Part shown: positions 4,485 through 33,883 of the stretch, in pieces | How the letters are laid out: each line of letters begins with the position of its first letter | Position numbering within the stretch: position 1 is the stretch's first letter | Assembly (NCBI GenBank): GCA_016212885.1 | Contig: JACRDO010000103.1 | Span: 1 to 39,254 of the forward strand | Length of the DNA: 39,254 nucleotides | Source: Elusimicrobiota bacterium | Lineage (GTDB): Bacteria > Elusimicrobiota > Elusimicrobia > UBA1565 | Reading direction: 5' to 3' | Made by a program: the position numbers and the translations under genes | The notes under the pieces: generated by a model | What the model was told of the DNA's origin: nothing | Seen by the model: the letters and a program-made list of their open reading frames with translations, nothing else | The model's database searches: none

Positions 4485-5561
4485 ATGGAAGCCAGGCTGC
4501 CGGTCTCCGTCATCACCTCGTTCGCCCTCCACGCCGGGGGGCTGGCCGGCTATCTGCTCATCAGCCAGGCGTCCAGAACGGTCGACACCCGGTTCATCGA
4601 TAACGTGGACCTCATCATGGCCGCTCCGCAGATGCCGAGACCGGCCGCCCCGAAGCCCCTGCAGCCGCCCTCGCTCAAGGACTTCTTGAAGCTCGCCCTT
4701 CCGGCAATCCCGAAGCCTCCTGCGCCGAGCGCCCCGCTGGAGGTGAAGGCCCCGGAGATCGCGCGCAAGCTCATGGACATCAACCAACCCAAGCTCGACG
4801 ACCGTGGCAAGCTCAAGAGGTCCGAGACCCTCGAAGGGCTCGACCTCGGACACAGGCGCGAGAGCCTTGCGAAGATCGACTTGGGGGCCCTGCGCGAGGC
4901 CAAGGCGCCGATCGATGCTCTCCCGAAGCTCGAGGAGGTCGGGGTCCGGCGCGCCTCCAAGAAGGCGGTCGAGATGGCGGCGCTCGCCGATGAGCGCAGC
5001 CGGGAGGCGCCGCAGGCCCTCGCGGCCCTTCCGAGCCCGGCGCTCAGGAGCTCCAAGGCGCTCTCAGCCGCCCCGCTCTTGGCTCCCGAGGCCCCGCGCG
5101 GAGAGGGCGGCGGCTCAAGCCGCATCGCGCAAGCCCTTGCGGCCAGGGAGGAGCAGCCGCCGGCCCTGCAGCCCCGGGCTTTGCCCGCGATCCCGAAGCA
5201 GGGCGCCATCGAGCGCTCCGCGATCGCGCCGCGCAGGCAGGCGGAGGGCCTTCAGGCCGCCCCCAAGAAAGGCGTGGAGATCGAAGGGCCCCTGCGCGAC
5301 CGGCAGGTCGTCGCGTCGAGCATCCCCCCATTCCCCCAGTGGGCGAAGGACCAGGGCCTCGTGGAGGCCGACGTCGCGATCCGCTTCTACGTCGATTTCT
5401 CGGGGCGGGTGCTCGAGAACATTCGCGTCGAGAAGACCTCCGGCTTCGGGCGCCTCGACCGCCTGGTCATCGAGCATCTCAAGGCCTGGCGGTTCGCGCC
5501 CGTGGACCCTTCGGCCGGGAACCAATGGGGGGTCATCACCTTCAGGTTCGTAGCGGAGTAG
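4485..5561 (+). CDS. tonB: TonB family energy transducer
   Basis: 358 residues. A single N-terminal membrane anchor (about residues 5-25) is followed by a long Pro/Ala/Lys/Glu-rich periplasmic linker and a C-terminal TonB domain (about 270-358). The C-terminal domain has the typical pattern: a partner-binding strand, then VDFSGRVLENIRVEKTSG and the AWRFAPV strand before the end. TonB carries energy from ExbB/ExbD across the periplasm to outer-membrane partners. It lies 23 bases after exbD and 4 bases before the next gene. A TolA-like role is possible, but the C-terminal fold pattern fits TonB. Confidence 0.88.
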   Translation: MEARLPVSVITSFALHAGGLAGYLLISQASRTVDTRFIDNVDLIMAAPQMPRPAAPKPLQPPSLKDFLKLALPAIPKPPAPSAPLEVKAPEIARKLMDINQPKLDDRGKLKRSETLEGLDLGHRRESLAKIDLGALREAKAPIDALPKLEEVGVRRASKKAVEMAALADERSREAPQALAALPSPALRSSKALSAAPLLAPEAPRGEGGGSSRIAQALAAREEQPPALQPRALPAIPKQGAIERSAIAPRRQAEGLQAAPKKGVEIEGPLRDRQVVASSIPPFPQWAKDQGLVEADVAIRFYVDFSGRVLENIRVEKTSGFGRLDRLVIEHLKAWRFAPVDPSAGNQWGVITFRFVAE

Positions 5562-5565
5562 CCAA

Positions 5566-6741
5566 ATGAATAGGAACCTCAGATTTTCTTTCGCATCCCT
5601 GCTGGCCGCGGCGTTCCTTGCGGCGCACGTTTCGCCGGCCGGCGCGATCTTCGGAATCGGAGTAAAGAAGAAGACCGAACCTCCCAAGGCGCAGAGCCGG
5701 GATGACGCCCTGCCGGGGCTCGTGCAGGGCCCGGACCAGGCCCTGCCCAAGATGGCCGCGGAGGCCGAGAAGGAGCGCTCCCAGGACGCCCCGCCGGCCG
5801 AGCAGAAGCCGGAAAGCCAGGCGTCAGCCGAGACCAAGGTTTCAGAGTCGGAGACCGCGGTCGGCGCCAATCCTTCTCCGGTCATGGGGGGCGCCATGCC
5901 GCAGGAGGTCGTCATCAAGACCGAGGCTGGGGGGAAGCTCAAAGCCAAGAAGTCGCCGCTGCAGATCCAGGTCGATCCCTTCGAGTCCATCCGGGACTCG
6001 ATCCGTCCCGACCAGCAGCTGCTGCTCGCCGAGTCCCCCTTGACCGTGGTCTGGCGCCGCACCCATCCCGAGTTCCTGCGCAATGCCCGCGTCATCGCGC
6101 CCTGGCGCAGCGCCTTCAGCGAGCGGCCCGGCATGGTCTTCCGCCCGCGCGACATGCTCGGGGAGGTGCTCGGCCGCAGGATCGACCCCAAGGAAGCCAA
6201 GGGCTACCAGTGGAGCCTGACGATCGTCGACGAGGAGGGGAAGGTCTTCCAGCAATTCGACGGCTCAAGCAATCCACCAGAGGAGCTCATCTGGGAAGGC
6301 CAGAACGAACAGGACGAATGGATCAAGGCGGGGAAGGCCTACTCTTCGGTCTATATGTTCACCGATCCGGCCGGCACGCCGTACACGCGCCCGGGCAGGC
6401 CCATCAAGCACAGCGCCTTCCTCCACCAGGAGAGGACGGGCCTGCACATCAGCATCGACTCGACGGCCCTCTTCGGGCCGAACAAGGAGTCCGCTCAGCT
6501 CGTGGGCGACGGCCAAGGGATGCTGCGCGCTGCGGCCGACCTGATCAAGCGCCGCTATCCGGGCGTGCCGCTCCGGGTGGAAGCCTTCGCCTCCACCAAG
6601 GAGCTGGGCGAGCGGCAGGCGCAGACGGCCCAGGAGTATCTCGTCAAGGAGCTCATGCTCATGCCGCAGGACATCTCCGCGGAAGCCGACAAGGCCGGCT
6701 TCTCGGACCAGCGCCTCGAGATCATCATGCTCAATCGCTGA
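5566..6741 (+). CDS. Secreted OmpA-like C-terminal domain protein
   Basis: 391 residues with a Sec signal peptide (about residues 1-27, ending AGA). A charged, disordered Pro/Glu/Lys segment (about 30-130) follows, then a beta-rich middle region with a WEGQNEQDEWI stretch and a C-terminal domain (about 285-391). The last part (a strand beginning LHISIDSTALFGPN, helix AAADLIKRRYP, then the LRVEAFASTKELGERQAQTAQEYL pattern) resembles the OmpA/MotB peptidoglycan-binding fold, but its core is divergent and the usual Asp/Arg pair is not clearly kept. The ATG is 4 bases after tonB. It would be the envelope end of this energy-transduction operon; the exact ligand is unknown. Confidence 0.7.
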   Translation: MNRNLRFSFASLLAAAFLAAHVSPAGAIFGIGVKKKTEPPKAQSRDDALPGLVQGPDQALPKMAAEAEKERSQDAPPAEQKPESQASAETKVSESETAVGANPSPVMGGAMPQEVVIKTEAGGKLKAKKSPLQIQVDPFESIRDSIRPDQQLLLAESPLTVVWRRTHPEFLRNARVIAPWRSAFSERPGMVFRPRDMLGEVLGRRIDPKEAKGYQWSLTIVDEEGKVFQQFDGSSNPPEELIWEGQNEQDEWIKAGKAYSSVYMFTDPAGTPYTRPGRPIKHSAFLHQERTGLHISIDSTALFGPNKESAQLVGDGQGMLRAAADLIKRRYPGVPLRVEAFASTKELGERQAQTAQEYLVKELMLMPQDISAEADKAGFSDQRLEIIMLNR

Positions 6742-18080: not shown

Positions 18081-18731
18081 TCATATGGGGGGACTTGCCG
18101 GCCGGCTGCTGCGCCCGGTCATCCCTATTGCCTTCAGTTTCTTTATTACACCTGCCCGTATCCTGTTATCAGGGATTTCCTTCGCCCAATATTCCGCTTT
18201 TTTAAAACTGAATGATGAAGTAAAAAATAGTTCCGGGAATTCCGCATACTGCTTTTTCCTGCGTGTGGAAAGGTAAAGGCCGTCAATCAATGCTTTCTCC
18301 GGTTCAGCCATCAAAAAAGAGCCCGTTCCTTTATACCAGTCAAACCCCCGGAAAAACGACGGAGCAATTTGATGAACGGAATATACCCCCAATTTTGTCC
18401 GGATCTTCCGCGAGTGAGTTGTTGACGCCAGCGTAACAAACTGCGGTATCTGCTCTATAATGCCGTGCGCATGCAGAGCGCTGATGAACGAAACATAAGC
18501 CCGGGACCTGGGGAACAAAAAAGGAACGGCCGCGAAACTGTGCATTTGTTCATTGCCTGCCTCGCCCCACACTCCGCGGCAGAGTTTGATGACCAGCCCT
18601 TGCCTCTCAAGGCAGTTCAACGCCTGCGTAACCGAAGAAAGGGATTTCCCGGACAATGCGGACAATTCACGAGTTGTGAAAATAGGCCGCTTCAATTGCC
18701 TGATGTATTTCCACAGCGGCTGATTAGCCAT
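18081..18731 (-). CDS. abiEi: AbiEi-family type IV antitoxin
   Basis: 216 residues. An N-terminal winged helix (about 15-60, TTRELSALSGKSLSSVTQALNCLERQGLV) is followed by the AbiEi C-terminal region (RAYVSFISALHAHGIIEQIPQ, then EPEKALIDGLYL). AbiEi antitoxins repress their own promoter through the winged helix and counter the AbiEii nucleotidyltransferase. It overlaps the toxin gene by 8 bases and lies downstream of it. In the AbiE systems I know the antitoxin comes first. The last 12 or so residues (GRSSRPASPPI) are read from GC-rich flanking DNA, so the natural C-terminus may have been changed at the island edge. Confidence 0.82.
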   Translation of the reverse strand: MANQPLWKYIRQLKRPIFTTRELSALSGKSLSSVTQALNCLERQGLVIKLCRGVWGEAGNEQMHSFAAVPFLFPRSRAYVSFISALHAHGIIEQIPQFVTLASTTHSRKIRTKLGVYSVHQIAPSFFRGFDWYKGTGSFLMAEPEKALIDGLYLSTRRKKQYAEFPELFFTSSFSFKKAEYWAKEIPDNRIRAGVIKKLKAIGMTGRSSRPASPPI

Positions 18732-19509
18732 TTGACGTCATGCTCTCGATGAAATCAGTCGCCTTCAGGACTATTCCGTCCCAGGCCGAAGCTGAATCGT
18801 AAACGCTTTGCTCCTCCGGCCGGAGATAATTCAGCACAGTATCTCTGAACCTGCCGAAGCTGACGGAAAAAGCGCTGTCGCAGGATTTTTTGATCGTGTC
18901 ATGGTCCAAGGCCCGCATACCCCGTGCTGGAGGCCTGGACTGGGGGATAAGCATGTAGATGTCAAAGATGTCCCGGGCCTGCGGCACGGCCCTTGAAGCG
19001 AGCGCACCTATTTTCTGAAGCATGGCCGACTCGGCGTCATAATGGGGAACCAGCAGGGGAGGAAGCCTGTAGGCGCGCAAAACCGCGTCGGAAACCGGTT
19101 CCGCCGGAGCATGACCGCTGAAACCCCTCCTGGAAAATTCTATCTTGGTGAAAAGATCAATTCCCGCGGAATTTGCAAGGTGCGCCTTGAACCTCTGGGT
19201 TGTTTCCGTTTGCTTGGCCTTTGAAATGTCGGGCGGCGCGACTTTGACTATGCCGAAAGGTTTAAGCCCGTCATGAAAGGAAGAAGCCCGCAGGATGTTC
19301 ATTACACAGTCCCTTGCCGCTATCATATTTATATTTTTGATATCCAGGTCCAGGTCTTCCGAATAGCGCGGGCTTTTGAAGAAAAAACGGAGATTCGCGC
19401 CGCCTTTTAGAGCGTAATCAGCCGGCTTGAGCTTTCTGCCGAGCCAGCGCAGAAATTCCAGATGAAAGACTTCCCGTAATTCCAAATCGTTGCGGATATG
19501 GCCGTTCAT
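18724..19509 (-). CDS. abiEii: AbiEii/AbiGii-family nucleotidyltransferase toxin
   Basis: 261 residues from the ATG at 19507-19509, with AAGGA just upstream. A longer frame starting at 19548 lacks a ribosome site. The nucleotidyltransferase core is clear: KGGANLRFFF (about 35-44) then SEDLDLDI (about 50-57), the GG...S-x-D-x-D signature. The AbiEii fold continues with the helical half that includes ESAMLQKIGALASR and ARDIFDIYML. Such toxins modify tRNA or other targets and can abort phage infection (family knowledge). GC content is clearly lower than in the neighbours, suggesting recent transfer. Confidence 0.85.
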   Translation of the reverse strand: MNGHIRNDLELREVFHLEFLRWLGRKLKPADYALKGGANLRFFFKSPRYSEDLDLDIKNINMIAARDCVMNILRASSFHDGLKPFGIVKVAPPDISKAKQTETTQRFKAHLANSAGIDLFTKIEFSRRGFSGHAPAEPVSDAVLRAYRLPPLLVPHYDAESAMLQKIGALASRAVPQARDIFDIYMLIPQSRPPARGMRALDHDTIKKSCDSAFSVSFGRFRDTVLNYLRPEEQSVYDSASAWDGIVLKATDFIESMTSNG

Positions 19510-19553
19510 GCTTTCCTTGCCCCGTAAATTGAATTCCCGAAAAGGCAATATGA

Positions 19554-25283: not shown

Positions 25284-25335
25284 TTGACACGGCCTATGCA
25301 GCTTGAGTATCATATGGTTAGTTGAATATATATTC
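25284..25335 (+). promoter_or_regulatory. arsR-type gene promoter with a palindromic operator candidate
   Basis: TTGACA (25284-25289), an 18-base spacer and TATCAT (25308-25313). Just downstream, across the predicted start point, is a perfect 12-base palindrome, GAATATATATTC (25324-25335). ArsR-family repressors bind such AT-rich palindromes over their own promoter, so autorepression is likely. Confidence 0.6.
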
Positions 25336-25350
25336 CTAAAGGCAATCGAG

Positions 25351-25683
25351 ATGGCAAGCGAGGATCTGGTTTTCAAGATCAAAGCGGATTTCCTGAAGTG
25401 CCTGGCCCATCCCATCCGGCTGGCGATCATCGAGCATCTCAAGCATGGGGAGAAATCGGTGGGCCAGATGGTCCAGGCGCTCGGAGTGGAGCAATCCGGC
25501 TTGTCCAAGCATCTGGCGCTGCTGCGCCAGGCCGGGATACTCAAGTCCAGGCAGGAGAAGGTCACCGTCTATTACTCCATCCGGGACAAGGATATCTTCC
25601 ATGTGCTGCGGCCTATCTCGGAGATCCTCCGGAAGAAGCTCGAGGAAAGCCAGCGAGTGCTGAGCCATTTGGGAAGGGCATGA
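25351..25683 (+). CDS. ArsR-family winged-helix regulator
   Basis: 110 residues from the ATG at 25351 (AAAGG about 8 bases upstream). The ArsR plan is clear: an N-terminal helix with FLKCLAHPIRLAIIEHL, then the helix-turn-helix VGQMVQALGVEQSGLSKHLALLRQAGIL (about 35-64), and the wing SRQEKVTVYYSI. The classical metal box in the recognition helix (ELCVCDL) is absent. The only Cys is in KCLAHP, so a metal sensor is not supported and the inducer is unknown. It heads the cluster that runs to 28665. Confidence 0.85.
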   Translation: MASEDLVFKIKADFLKCLAHPIRLAIIEHLKHGEKSVGQMVQALGVEQSGLSKHLALLRQAGILKSRQEKVTVYYSIRDKDIFHVLRPISEILRKKLEESQRVLSHLGRA

Positions 25684-25767
25684 TAATTTTTTTGCTTATA
25701 TATGCTAATAGGCTCATATGACCATATTATCAGGACAGAAATCGAATCGCGAAGCTCGGAGGCCGAA

Positions 25768-26052
25768 ATGAAAACATCCGCTCGAGGGCCGGCCTGCGTC
25801 GGGGTGACCGAGGTTCGTCCGGTGACCTCGCGGCTCTATGGAATCCGCGTCCAGCGCCATCTCATCTCCAAGCTCAAGAAAGTTCCTGAGCTGCATCATC
25901 CCAATCCAAAGAGCGACCTTTTCTGCGTCGAGGTCGGCAGCATGGAGAACTCGCCCGAGGGAGCCCTGATGCGGTTTGGGAAGATCGTGGCCAAGGCCGG
26001 CCTGGGGCTCTACTTCGGCATCGAGACTTCCGGCCAAGACGCGATGAAGTGA
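25768..26052 (+). CDS. Hypothetical 94-residue protein of the PEPCK-like cluster
   Basis: From the ATG at 25768, with GGAGG 6 bases upstream. Not recognised. It has a mixed alpha/beta look (VTEVRPVTSRLYGIRV, LISKLKKVPELHH, LFCVEVGSM, LMRFGKIVAKAGLGLYFGIET), two separate Cys and no membrane segment. It sits 16 bases before the PEPCK-like gene, so a direct functional link is likely. An HPr role would suit the neighbouring EIIA-like domain, but no HPr active-site motif is seen. Confidence 0.6.
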   Translation: MKTSARGPACVGVTEVRPVTSRLYGIRVQRHLISKLKKVPELHHPNPKSDLFCVEVGSMENSPEGALMRFGKIVAKAGLGLYFGIETSGQDAMK

Positions 26053-26068
26053 CCCTCGCGGAGCGGAT

Positions 26069-27286
26069 ATGCCTTTGGATGCCCTGACGGAGAATCCGTG
26101 GTCGAAGACCCACCCCGAGTTGAAGCTCCTCGACAATCCTTCCATGGAGGACATGAGAGCCTTCGCCAAGGCCGAAGAGATCACGACGGAGTTCGGCGCG
26201 CCGGCCTACCTTACGCATCACTCTTCTGGCCTGGGCGCCGAGAACCTCTGCTTCGCCGTGGAGGGGGTCAAGACGGGCCGGCTTCAACAGCGCATGAAAG
26301 CGGAGCCGGCCAGGGCCGTGGTCCGCGGCGTGCGCGCCGCGATGCCCCTGGTGGAATGGCTGAGCCTGGACCGGTGCCTCGGGCGAGAGGATGTCCGCTT
26401 CCATTGCCGCCTCCTCATCCCCAAGGCCTATTCCAGGGTGGGGCTCTTGTGGGCGAAGCTGCTTTTTCCGGCCGAGGAGGCCCTGCGCGACCCTCAGCGC
26501 GGACCGGATTTCCTGACGATCTGTTTCCCCAATATTGCGGAGTGCGCCCCTTCGGGCCTCGGGAAGGCTCCCGCGCGCATCATCCTGATCCAGCCCGAGG
26601 CCGGCGTCACGCTGGTGCTGGGAACGGACTCCGCCGAGGCGGTCAGGATGTCCTTCCTCATGCAGGCCATGTATCGGACCAAGCAGTTCGGCGGGATGGC
26701 GTTTCACGCAGGCTTGAAACTGGTGCGGGTGGCCAAAGGCGAAGGATTTCATGACCGCGGGATGCTCCTGGTCGGCCGCTCCGGGTCCGGGAAGACGGCG
26801 CTCGCCATTGACGACCATGGCTTCAAGCCTCCGGAGGCCGTGAGCGTCCTCCAGGACGACATCGTGCTCGTGACGCCGGACGGAAAGGCGCACGGCACGG
26901 AGGAAGGCAACAGGCTCTACGAGTTCCTGAAAGCCCACCCGGACATCGAAGCCTACCTCCTGAACACGGGTTCGGTCGGGAAAGGGGCGGACGCCAAAGG
27001 GTTCGGCTCCAACGGCGCCCAGATCCTCCAAGATGTGTCCTCAAAGCTCCTGGCGTTCGTCGCGCGCCAGGAGCCGGGGTGCTCCGCCGGCTGGGCGCGG
27101 GACCCGGACTGGGGCTATGAGGTGCCGAAATGCGTCCCTGGGGTGACTCCGTGGAACATGTACGAGCCGAGACGATACTACACGCCGGCCGCGTACCGGC
27201 GCTTGACCGACCAACTGCGCGAAGAACGGCGCGCTTGGCTCGGGCAGTTCACTCGATTGCCCGCCGCGGTCCGCCGGGCGATCTGA
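26069..27286 (+). CDS. Divergent ATP-type phosphoenolpyruvate carboxykinase-like protein
   Basis: 405 residues, against about 530 in true PckA. The order of PckA landmarks is kept: KTGR (68-71; the PEP/oxaloacetate Arg loop is YTGR in PckA), a long middle segment matching the PDFTVINAP region (PDFLTICFPN, 146-155), MAFHAG (210-215, where PckA has LPMHCSAN with the metal His), the P-loop GRSGSGKTA (236-244; PckA GLSGTGKTTL), QDD at 262-264 for the kinase-2 GDD, and LLNTGSVG (297-304, PckA VNTGWTGG). The signature GDDEHGW and the EGGCYAK segment are not kept. It may decarboxylate or phosphorylate a different substrate, or act as a P-loop kinase such as HprK, which shares this fold. Confidence 0.7.
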   Translation: MPLDALTENPWSKTHPELKLLDNPSMEDMRAFAKAEEITTEFGAPAYLTHHSSGLGAENLCFAVEGVKTGRLQQRMKAEPARAVVRGVRAAMPLVEWLSLDRCLGREDVRFHCRLLIPKAYSRVGLLWAKLLFPAEEALRDPQRGPDFLTICFPNIAECAPSGLGKAPARIILIQPEAGVTLVLGTDSAEAVRMSFLMQAMYRTKQFGGMAFHAGLKLVRVAKGEGFHDRGMLLVGRSGSGKTALAIDDHGFKPPEAVSVLQDDIVLVTPDGKAHGTEEGNRLYEFLKAHPDIEAYLLNTGSVGKGADAKGFGSNGAQILQDVSSKLLAFVARQEPGCSAGWARDPDWGYEVPKCVPGVTPWNMYEPRRYYTPAAYRRLTDQLREERRAWLGQFTRLPAAVRRAI

Positions 27287-27297
27287 GAGGAGGACCC

Positions 27298-27483
27298 ATG
27301 GGCCTATCGCGAGATTTCGTGATCACCAAAGGAGAGGCTTTGCGCATCCTTGGGATCAAAGGGGTTTCTCTGGATGACCTGGAACATGTCGCGAAGATCC
27401 CGAGCCTTCACGACAGGGAAGGGTATACCTCGACGGAACTGAAGCGCCTCATGGCAAGCCTGCGGAGGATCCTGAGCCGATAA
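27298..27483 (+). CDS. Small helical protein, possible excisionase/MerR-like DNA-binding fold
   Basis: 61 residues, ATG at 27298 after GGAGG. KGEALRILGIKGVSLDDLEHV ... GYTSTELKRLMASLRRIL looks like a small winged helix or MerR-type N-terminal domain, in which a helix pair is followed by (R/G)YTxxELxRL. It lies 11 bases after the PEPCK-like gene and 1 base before the next gene, so it is certainly in the same operon. It could be a second regulator or an adaptor. Confidence 0.6.
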   Translation: MGLSRDFVITKGEALRILGIKGVSLDDLEHVAKIPSLHDREGYTSTELKRLMASLRRILSR

Positions 27484-27484
27484 T

Positions 27485-28111
27485 ATGCCTTTGCGATCAG
27501 TCTGCCCGATCTGCAAGACCGTGTTGAGCAAGATCCGTTTTTCCGACATGGAATCGGAATACGGCTGCGAGAAATGCGGGAAATGGTTCACCTCCAGCGA
27601 TCTTCCCCAGCGCGAGGATGCGCCGCTCAGGCGTCCCAGGGAAAGCCGGCTGGCGTCGCCGCCAGGCCTTCTGGGTCTTACCAAGATATCCATAATCCTC
27701 AACCTCAAGTCCGCCAGCCTTACGGAAGCCGTCCAGGAGCTTGTTCCCAAAGCTCTGCATGGAACTGGGAACGCTTTCCTTGAGAGCGCCAAGATCGCCG
27801 GGGCCCTGGGAGAAGGGATCGCTGACGGCCGTTGCGTCGAATTCCACAAGGGCTTGGCGTTCCTGCACCTCCGGGTGGATGAACTTCGCGAATCCCGAGC
27901 GGCTGTAGGCGTCTCGGCGGACGGCTTGAGCGCCGGAGGCAATGCTCAGGGCCGCGTATTCGTGGCGGCCTTGTTCCTCAAGCCCAGGCTCGAATCCGGA
28001 GGAGATGTGCCGCATTGGGCCCGGAAGAAATTCTCAGACGAGCGGACGATCTATAGGCTCCGTACGGCTTCGGATCTTGAGGCCGTGTTCAAGCTGCTTC
28101 AAGACGCGTGA
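27485..28111 (+). CDS. Zinc-ribbon protein fused to a PTS EIIA (fructose/mannitol type)-like domain
   Basis: 208 residues. Residues 7-31 carry a zinc ribbon (CPIC ... CEKC). After a linker, residues 68-208 match the PTS EIIA-2 plan: ILNLKSASLTEAVQEL, a helix with AFLESAKIAGALGEGIADG, then CVEFHKG with H121 in the place of the phospho-His (family: GNGIAIPH), a VDELRESRAAVGVSADGLSAGG strand pair, VFVAALFLKP, and the final DERTIYRLRTASDLEAVFKLLQ. EIIA domains accept phosphate from HPr; here the zinc ribbon suggests a regulatory version. No HPr, EI or sugar permease is near. The call is by pattern only. Confidence 0.65.
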   Translation: MPLRSVCPICKTVLSKIRFSDMESEYGCEKCGKWFTSSDLPQREDAPLRRPRESRLASPPGLLGLTKISIILNLKSASLTEAVQELVPKALHGTGNAFLESAKIAGALGEGIADGRCVEFHKGLAFLHLRVDELRESRAAVGVSADGLSAGGNAQGRVFVAALFLKPRLESGGDVPHWARKKFSDERTIYRLRTASDLEAVFKLLQDA

Positions 28112-28167
28112 CTGTTCTGTGAGAATGTGACGGAAGCGATCCAAAATACGGACCAGGAGGGATCAAG

Positions 28168-28422
28168 ATGCCAGTGGACTACGTATGCGTCATGAATAAG
28201 AATCACAAGAGCTCCTTTGGGACGCCGGTGACCCCGCCGCCGCAGTGTTGCGGCAAGCCTATGATGCTGGAGGGGAGCTCCCCGCAGCCAACGGCTCTCG
28301 CCCAACCGACAGCCGCCGCTTGCGCCCAACCGGCAGCCGCGGCGCAGGCCTGCCCCCAGGCGGCTCCGAAAGCCAAGCCGTCCTTGCCGCAGCGGCCAAG
28401 GAAGGGAGCGCGGAAGGGGTGA
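28168..28422 (+). CDS. Small Cys-rich protein with CCGKPM motif (first paralogue)
   Basis: 84 residues, ATG after AGGAGG. The first 36 residues (YVCVMNKNHKSSFGTPVTPPPQCCGKPMML) resemble a rubredoxin- or desulfoferrodoxin-like metal knuckle: Cys, then PPxCCGKPM. The rest is a Gln/Ala/Pro-rich disordered tail ending in basic residues. It may bind zinc or iron. It pairs with the paralogue 24 bases downstream. Confidence 0.6.
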   Translation: MPVDYVCVMNKNHKSSFGTPVTPPPQCCGKPMMLEGSSPQPTALAQPTAAACAQPAAAAQACPQAAPKAKPSLPQRPRKGARKG

Positions 28423-28446
28423 TCCGCTTTTATAGGAGGGATCGAA

Positions 28447-28665
28447 ATGCCGCAGTATGTGTGCGCCGCGAATAAGAGCCACACGCAGTATTTTGGGCTG
28501 GCGATGGACAAGCCGCCACAATGCTGCGGCAGGCCCATGATGCTCGCCCAAGACGCGCAGCAGTCTGCAGCGGCCGCCAAGCCCCAGACGGTGTCGCCCT
28601 ACGAGCGATCCGCTCCGCAGCAGTCCCAGACGGGGCAGAAGAAATGGTGGCAATTCTGGAAATAG
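28447..28665 (+). CDS. Small Cys-rich protein with CCGRPM motif (second paralogue)
   Basis: 72 residues, ATG after GGAGG. The N-terminus (YVCAANKSHTQYFGLAMDKPPQCCGRPMML) aligns with the previous gene along its whole metal-knuckle part. The tail differs and ends KKWWQFWK. It is a tandem duplication with diverging tails, the last gene of the ArsR-led cluster. Confidence 0.6.
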   Translation: MPQYVCAANKSHTQYFGLAMDKPPQCCGRPMMLAQDAQQSAAAAKPQTVSPYERSAPQQSQTGQKKWWQFWK

Positions 28666-33255: not shown

Positions 33256-33432
33256 TTAGGTCGTCTTGGCCCTTTGGATGCGGGCGAATTTCTCGCTTAA
33301 TTGCGCAAACGCCTGGATGGCCTTTTGATAATATGCAATTTGTTCTGCCGGGGGCAAATCCTTGATGTCTTGATAAATCTCCTCTTGGATTTTATCCTTC
33401 ATCCGCACGCAGTCAAATATCTTCGTCCTCAT
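33256..33432 (-). CDS. Small protein downstream of a PIN toxin, likely partner
   Basis: 58 residues from the ATG at 33430-33432, with the strong GGAGGTGG site just upstream inside the PIN gene; the two overlap by 20 bases. Helical and acidic/basic mixed (DIKDLPPAEQIAYYQKAIQAFAQLSEKFARIQ), like the short partner that often accompanies PIN proteins of this shape. Probably the antitoxin or a modulator, although it lacks an obvious DNA-binding domain. Confidence 0.6.
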   Translation of the reverse strand: MRTKIFDCVRMKDKIQEEIYQDIKDLPPAEQIAYYQKAIQAFAQLSEKFARIQRAKTT

Positions 33433-33883
33433 GGACCACCTCCTTCGGAGATCGTATTTCAATACCCCGATATCCCAAGGACAGGTTCACCGCATTATAT
33501 TGCCTGATCTTCTCAAAGTGCACAAGATGTTTGAAATTCCAGCTGACGATGATATCGACTTCGGCCACGGTGGCCAGCGCCACGTGCGCGGCGTCATCCA
33601 AGCGCATCGGGGAGAGGATGCCTTCTCGCACGTAGCGATCTCTCACGGCAATGGCTTCCGAACTCAGTTCTATCCGCTCCATGGACTCATCGGGCTGCGC
33701 CAAGAAGAAATTCACGATTTCAGCGGGAGCCTTTTGTATTTCGCGGACGGTTACATCCGAAATCACGATTCTATAGCGCCCCTGCCGGGCTTCCTCGAAA
33801 AAACGCTTCGAGGATTCGGCAAACTCCTCGTCAAAGCACCCTCCAAAAACCGAAGTATCCACGTAAATGCGCAAGCGTTTCAT
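33413..33883 (-). CDS. PIN-domain RNase, VapC-like toxin
   Basis: 156 residues. The PIN acidic site is visible: D9 (YVDTSVF), E48 (TVREIQKAP), D96/D97 (RLDDAAHVALA) and D110 with the SWNFKHL motif. PIN toxins cut tRNA or rRNA with Mg. The gene is AT-richer than its neighbours, and the unit sits between the SPase-like gene and pilT like an insert. Its companion is the small gene that overlaps its 3' end. Toxin-first order is less common than antitoxin-first. Confidence 0.85.
   Translation of the reverse strand: MKRLRIYVDTSVFGGCFDEEFAESSKRFFEEARQGRYRIVISDVTVREIQKAPAEIVNFFLAQPDESMERIELSSEAIAVRDRYVREGILSPMRLDDAAHVALATVAEVDIIVSWNFKHLVHFEKIRQYNAVNLSLGYRGIEIRSPKEVVHEDEDI

Follow-up and report, generated by a model that had tools for sequence, protein, structure and literature searches.

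The window analysed here, the whole 39,254-nucleotide stretch, corresponded to contig C51 in a 3.8-Mb draft genome (G000; completeness 91.6%) of an Elusimicrobiota bacterium. Seven open reading frames (ORFs) at 25351-28665, all open, encoded in one direction and headed by a gene for an ArsR-family regulator, formed a module that was conserved in relatives, where the ArsR gene was linked to operons for Ehr complexes. As an explanation that we favour tentatively, with confidence a little short of even, the module would be an auto-regulated ArsR operon that tunes flux at the phosphoenolpyruvate (PEP)/pyruvate node and, where present, Ehr to an energy or redox signal. The cluster is real and conserved, and its mechanism is what we infer from it. 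An earlier description of the same DNA (hereafter the original prediction) had reported seven tightly spaced same-strand genes behind ArsR, and all seven ORFs were found in their place. The features of the locus, including a PEP carboxykinase (PEPCK)-like gene and a fusion of a zinc ribbon to an enzyme IIA (EIIA) domain of the phosphotransferase system (PTS), were as follows:

25284-25313, forward strand: sigma-70-like promoter TTGACA-18-TATCAT serving arsR (11 of 12 consensus matches)
25309-25326, no strand assigned: operator O1, ATCATATGGTTAGTTGAA, overlapping the -10 element (position weight matrix score 16.7, weaker than O2)
25351-25683, forward strand: ArsR-family regulator, 110 aa, without conserved Cys (NF033788, 84.7 bits against a cut-off of 55; orthologues 67-81% identical)
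25713-25730, no strand assigned: operator O2, CTCATATGACCATATTAT, between arsR and the 94-aa gene (position weight matrix score 23.0)
25768-26052, forward strand: U94, a conserved protein of 94 residues with no assigned fold (family profile; model pLDDT 79)
26069-27286, forward strand: PEPCK-like protein, 405 aa, with an internal deletion whose junction lies near 26900-26905 (profiles, alignment with relatives)
27298-27483, forward strand: s61, a small helix-turn-helix (HTH)-like protein with the motif [ILM]T.KEA..LGI...SL..LE, kept in at least eight loci
27485-28111, forward strand: ZnEIIA, an N-terminal zinc ribbon (C7, C10, C28, C31) followed by an EIIA-fold domain
27866-27868, forward strand: codon of His128, the candidate phospho-His of ZnEIIA (alignment with canonical EIIA)
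28168-28422, forward strand: C84, a CCGKPM protein (C-x5-H-x13-CC) with an Ala/Pro/Gln-rich tail
28447-28665, forward strand: C72, a CCGRPM protein with a C-terminal WWQFWK motif

Conservation of the module in relatives

Profile searches of 341 genomes of the phylum recovered ArsR and U94 together at 12 loci in 11 genomes. The U94 profile matched in 11 of the 341 genomes, with ArsR as partner wherever the surroundings were readable. Relatives from the same taxonomic order were Elusimicrobia bacterium genomes from groundwater. Most ArsR-U94 loci continued with s61, ZnEIIA and CCG(K/R)PM proteins (hereafter CCG proteins; one to three copies each), and tetratricopeptide repeat proteins or a small lipoprotein-like ORF were interposed in some. 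The latter, a short ORF with a lipobox-like Cys, lay between ArsR and U94 in L036, L073, and L074 and was absent from the window.

It is highly improbable that unrelated small genes simply happen to follow an ArsR gene here. The PEPCK-like gene was mostly located elsewhere in other genomes, as such an explanation would have it, but chance is contradicted by the same gene order, which recurs across many genomes of different families, and the module loci have an operator in common. The cluster is a conserved module whose gene order is not due to chance. The original prediction had named recurrence of the PEPCK-like gene together with the zinc-ribbon/EIIA gene as its support; this pair recurred only once beyond the window (G010, L036), whereas the wider module recurred often.

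Two loci retained an intact ArsR gene adjoined by decayed remnants of ZnEIIA (L053, 1689-1907, and L074, 5943-6299; genomes G003 and G209), indicating erosion of the module. In addition, a solitary ArsR orthologue (67% identity) without the module was found at L127 (G025:C16), with two overlapping operator-like sites close upstream in the contig.

Operators and the ArsR regulator

The ArsR assignment was borne out, with a winged-helix ArsR domain matched by NF033788, PF01022, and PF12840. A motif search of the regions upstream of ArsR and U94 yielded an 18-bp palindrome, ATCATATGATCATATGAT, of the form TCATAT-N4-ATATGA. Strong sites within the module loci were almost confined to these two kinds of region in a position weight matrix scan. 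The case for a palindromic operator at ArsR was stronger than originally claimed, since there were two sites and the motif recurred in relatives. When 19 ArsR genes were left out of motif building, sites with scores of 12 or more were found for 8 of them; shuffling predicted 0.5. Operator sites also stood in front of a ZnEIIA-CCG operon without ArsR (G010, L049). Two promoter-like sites were found in the region of the window cluster (shuffle mean, 0.7).

O2 was the sole site with at most one mismatch in the whole window genome, and ArsR therefore appears to act only locally there; a genome-wide regulon in this genome was ruled out on the same ground. Across 17 orthologues, no conserved Cys was found in ArsR, nor a canonical metal site or redox Cys pair, and His84 was not conserved. 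The conserved His residues fell in the AHP.R and SKHL motifs, which were general across the alignment. Judging from these sequences, ArsR probably responds to a small molecule or to a partner protein.

An exchangeable PEP-enzyme position

The protein encoded downstream of U94 had been described as a divergent ATP-PEPCK. The similarity was real (PF01293, E=1.5e-17, score 63.9 against a cut-off of 26.5; NF006821, E=6e-63, 213 bits, below the 369-bit cut-off), but the protein was not merely divergent. Its relatives were approximately 525-540 aa in length, and the window copy was unbroken to GTE and restarted at EGNRL, with about 121 residues retained by relatives lost in frame. It kept the P-loop and a kinase-2-like DD, whereas a full-length PckA catalytic domain with the R333/E297 region was not found. 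The missing residues included the counterparts, by alignment, of two canonical PEPCK elements, ENV (E297) and ENTR (R333), as well as the PPV.LTPEQA helix; the roles of E297 and R333 are presumed here to be those in E. coli PckA. Because the deletion removes catalytic residues, the window protein probably does not function as a PEPCK. The deletion may be an assembly error. A canonical PckA (711 bits) was encoded on contig C166 of the same genome. In a tree, both module copies of the PEPCK-like protein formed the longest branches among full-type sequences, with no resolved placement. L044 (G071; 5056-6400) encoded another PEPCK-like protein, strongly divergent and with internal losses of its own, beside genes without Pfam matches.

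The position of this gene was interchangeable, being taken by PEPCK-like, pyruvate phosphate dikinase (PPDK) or GTP-PEPCK according to lineage. In L048, L070, and L071, all from one genus, PPDK was encoded by the co-directional downstream gene (PF01326, PF00391, and PF02896; domains tested on L048), and in L045 (G037) GTP-PEPCK (PF00821, PF17297) was encoded downstream on the same strand. All three types act at the PEP node or derive from PEP-node enzymes. If roughly 4 genes in 3500 are of this kind and 4 downstream slots are available, the probability of meeting a PEP-node enzyme by chance in four independent lineages would be near 1e-7, a rough estimate to be taken only as a guide, since the theme was picked after the fact. 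The original prediction had placed a PEP- or phosphate-linked system beside a metal/redox system. The former is favoured because PPDK or GTP-PEPCK replaces the PEPCK-like protein in other lineages, and sensing of PEP or phosphate state by the module is plausible; the latter is weaker because ArsR has no conserved Cys or canonical metal site.

The zinc-ribbon EIIA protein

The proposed zinc-ribbon/EIIA fusion was confirmed for its EIIA part by family profile and fold. As a single protein, ZnEIIA gave an insignificant match to PF00359 (12.2 bits). Its family profile found stand-alone PTS_EIIA_2 proteins of 152-165 aa with E down to 1e-15, one of which was checked (PF00359, 1.5e-43). The AlphaFold model (pLDDT 87) matched PtsN (3urr) with a TM-score of 0.79 over the target, and also the cytoplasmic domain of Band-3/AE, a member of the EIIA fold without phospho-His. 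The canonical EIIA motif GIAIPH aligned with GLAFLH128 of ZnEIIA; all seven closer members had His128, and five divergent members had another residue there. His122 (EFH) was rejected as the phospho-His, the family alignment with canonical EIIA placing the active His at GLAFLH128. Most members retained the zinc-ribbon Cys, and the ribbon was lost in L048, L049, and L051.

The earlier statement that no enzyme I (EI) or HPr gene was near held locally, but the genome contained one HPr-EI pair (contig C11). Because the two genes sit together there, this putative pair is taken to provide a phosphoryl donor for ZnEIIA in the window genome. The product of the gene before ZnEIIA, s61, weakly matched the HTH_17 part of HTH-EIIA fusions (hhalign, P=0.002), a weak hint that s61 followed by ZnEIIA might resemble a split HTH-EIIA fusion.

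Small families of the module

The module defines three small families (U94, s61, and CCGKPM), none of which clearly matches a known family or fold. For the U94 model, no PDB match with E<0.001 was found; ribosomal S21 and colicin immunity proteins were rejected as identities, since the Pfam matches were weak and no fold matched. Cys-His-Cys-Cys was invariant in 16 CCG proteins, which touched a single family, Desulfoferrod_N (PF06397; 3 of 16 members, best E=0.055). The desulforedoxin/desulfoferrodoxin iron site C-x2-C...CC was not found in these proteins, which had C-x5-H...CC instead, and with no PDB match they were rejected as a solved rubredoxin or desulforedoxin. One type of CCG protein ended in WW(Q/H)xW(K/Q) (28642-28662 in the window; also L036, L049, L071, and L073), possibly an interaction or membrane tail.

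These families bear on whether the operon serves redox or metal stress under ArsR control, with zinc or iron handled by a functional core of CCGKPM proteins and zinc ribbon and with the carbon enzymes as passengers, which we consider quite unlikely. The invariant CCG ligands and their sole touch on Desulfoferrod_N, the ribbon Cys kept by most ZnEIIA members, and the closeness of ArsR to metalloregulator models all point that way. Set against them are an ArsR without conserved Cys, whose conserved His are those general to the alignment, the loss of the ribbon from ZnEIIA in three loci, and the lack of a recurrent metal transporter or redox enzyme among the loci read.

Linkage of ArsR to Ehr operons

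Ehr complexes are hydrogenase-related membrane complexes, set apart by absent Ni-Fe CxxC ligands, and of unknown function (PMC6349859, PMC10284858). The operons neighbouring ArsR in relatives encoded NuoL/N/H-like, HyfE-like, and large- and small-subunit-like proteins. The large subunits in L069, L050, and L133 had no Ni-Fe CxxC (AESICGDT, DPSFHNW), as is distinctive of Ehr, and a genuine [NiFe] hydrogenase as neighbour was ruled out by the absent Cys ligands. The first gene of the Ehr operon usually encoded an HTH_17-PTS_EIIA_2 fusion. This fusion headed Ehr operons across the order (L069, 15946-16596; loci L134-L157), and its active-site PH histidine was intact in 23 of 23 aligned copies.

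With a strong fusion match (E<1e-35) as the mark of an Ehr genome, the order contained 24, of which 15 had an ArsR orthologue within approximately 12 kb of Ehr, 4 had it elsewhere in the genome, and 5 had none. In G023 and G039, ArsR was encoded 14-22 bp upstream of the fusion gene in the same operon, and in G049 the genes for U94, ZnEIIA, ArsR, and Ehr followed one another on one strand with minimal gaps. In G019, the HTH-EIIA/Ehr operon was preceded by an operator-like site (score 18.4); those in G018, G020, G052, and G005 were weaker. This linkage is new relative to the original prediction. Literature searches found no described regulator or EIIA/PtsN partner of Ehr, and nothing relevant on PEPCK pseudoenzymes.

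The strong linkage, together with the absence of Ehr from G000, the PEPCK-like deletion, and the ZnEIIA remnants in G003 and G209, would also suit a cassette for Ehr assembly or control, of which the window copy is a relic decaying after Ehr loss. We regard this as unlikely: the seven window ORFs are open, six of them with coding-like codon use, the window ZnEIIA retains the conserved ribbon Cys and His128, and G041 also retains the module without Ehr, which gives persistence without Ehr in two lineages.

Proposed role of the module

In the explanation that we favour, namely tuning of PEP/pyruvate-node flux and Ehr by an auto-regulated operon, an ArsR-type repressor with no recognisable metal or thiol sensor would bind TCATAT-N4-ATATGA sites both at the arsR promoter and ahead of the U94 gene. 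Binding there would switch U94, in several lineages a PEP-interconverting enzyme, the HTH-like protein, the zinc-ribbon EIIA, and the desulforedoxin-like CCGKPM proteins. Relatives encode this ArsR next to or inside the Ehr operon, which begins with the HTH-EIIA fusion; there it may bring Ehr under the same control, and the signal would most likely be the intracellular energy or redox state. The EIIA domain is predicted to read a phosphorylation state supplied by the HPr/EI of the genome. The window copy would be a remodelled or partly decayed version, because Ehr is missing and the PEPCK-like protein is without its catalytic parts.

Several observations weigh against this explanation. Several ArsR orthologues had no operator score above 12, and O1 of the window was weak. 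Divergent members of the ZnEIIA family carried R, I, S or W in place of His128, and conservation did not extend to the second active-site His of EIIA in the family alignment. The PEPCK-like gene belonged to the operon at two loci only (the window and L036 of G010) and lay elsewhere in seven other genomes. Furthermore, neither Ehr nor the HTH-EIIA fusion was found in the window genome (91.6% complete), only Nuo-type hits of approximately 22-27% identity.

More specifically, it is conceivable, although on the doubtful side, that ArsR and the zinc-ribbon EIIA couple PEP/pyruvate state, read as PTS phosphorylation, to expression of Ehr and of a PEP-forming enzyme specific to the lineage, and that U94 and the CCGKPM proteins represent new partner families; together this would amount to an undescribed regulatory system. 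A regulator and operator common to Ehr and PEP-node enzymes would help to establish the conditions of Ehr production and would predict PEP or phosphate state as the signal. They also hint at an undescribed link of carbon metabolism with energy conservation, and the window copy illustrates that the module can persist without Ehr.

Other features of the window

The cluster was flanked by a Cas4/PD-(D/E)XK nuclease gene on one side and a convergent gene without assigned function on the other. A defence-island reading was ruled out, as PADLOC gave generic HTH matches for ArsR and nothing else. At 18081-19548 (reverse strand), the gene for a nucleotidyltransferase toxin of the AbiEii type (PF08843, 9.7e-16) adjoined one for an antitoxin with weak resemblance to AbiEi. 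They lie in a patch of approximately 52% GC within a contig of 64% GC, and the patch looks recently acquired. In addition, a PIN-domain-like protein (below cut-off) and a small downstream ORF at 33256-33883 (reverse strand) form a possible toxin-antitoxin pair.

Comparison with known systems

The regulator resembled ArsR/SmtB repressors in its fold, autoregulation layout, and AT-rich palindromic operator, and differed in that its family had no conserved metal, arsenic or thiol ligand set. The PEPCK-like protein was similar to PckA in sequence, P-loop, and kinase-2-like DD, whereas it belonged to a separate subfamily and its window copy was without about 121 residues including the E297-/R333-equivalent region. 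Most genomes of the order that carry Ehr had a member of this ArsR subfamily as neighbour of the Ehr operon, unlike the window genome, from which Ehr was absent.

ZnEIIA differed from EIIA-Ntr (PtsN) of the nitrogen-related PTS (PTS-Ntr) in its fusion to a zinc ribbon, in having LH in place of the PHA motif, in an active-site His that was not universal, and in its placement in an ArsR operon with PEP enzymes rather than at an rpoN locus. The two were alike in the EIIA fold, in the presence of EI and HPr in the genome, and in having no apparent permease role. In PTS-Ntr, EIIA acts as a regulator and not as part of a transporter, which is plausible for ZnEIIA as well.

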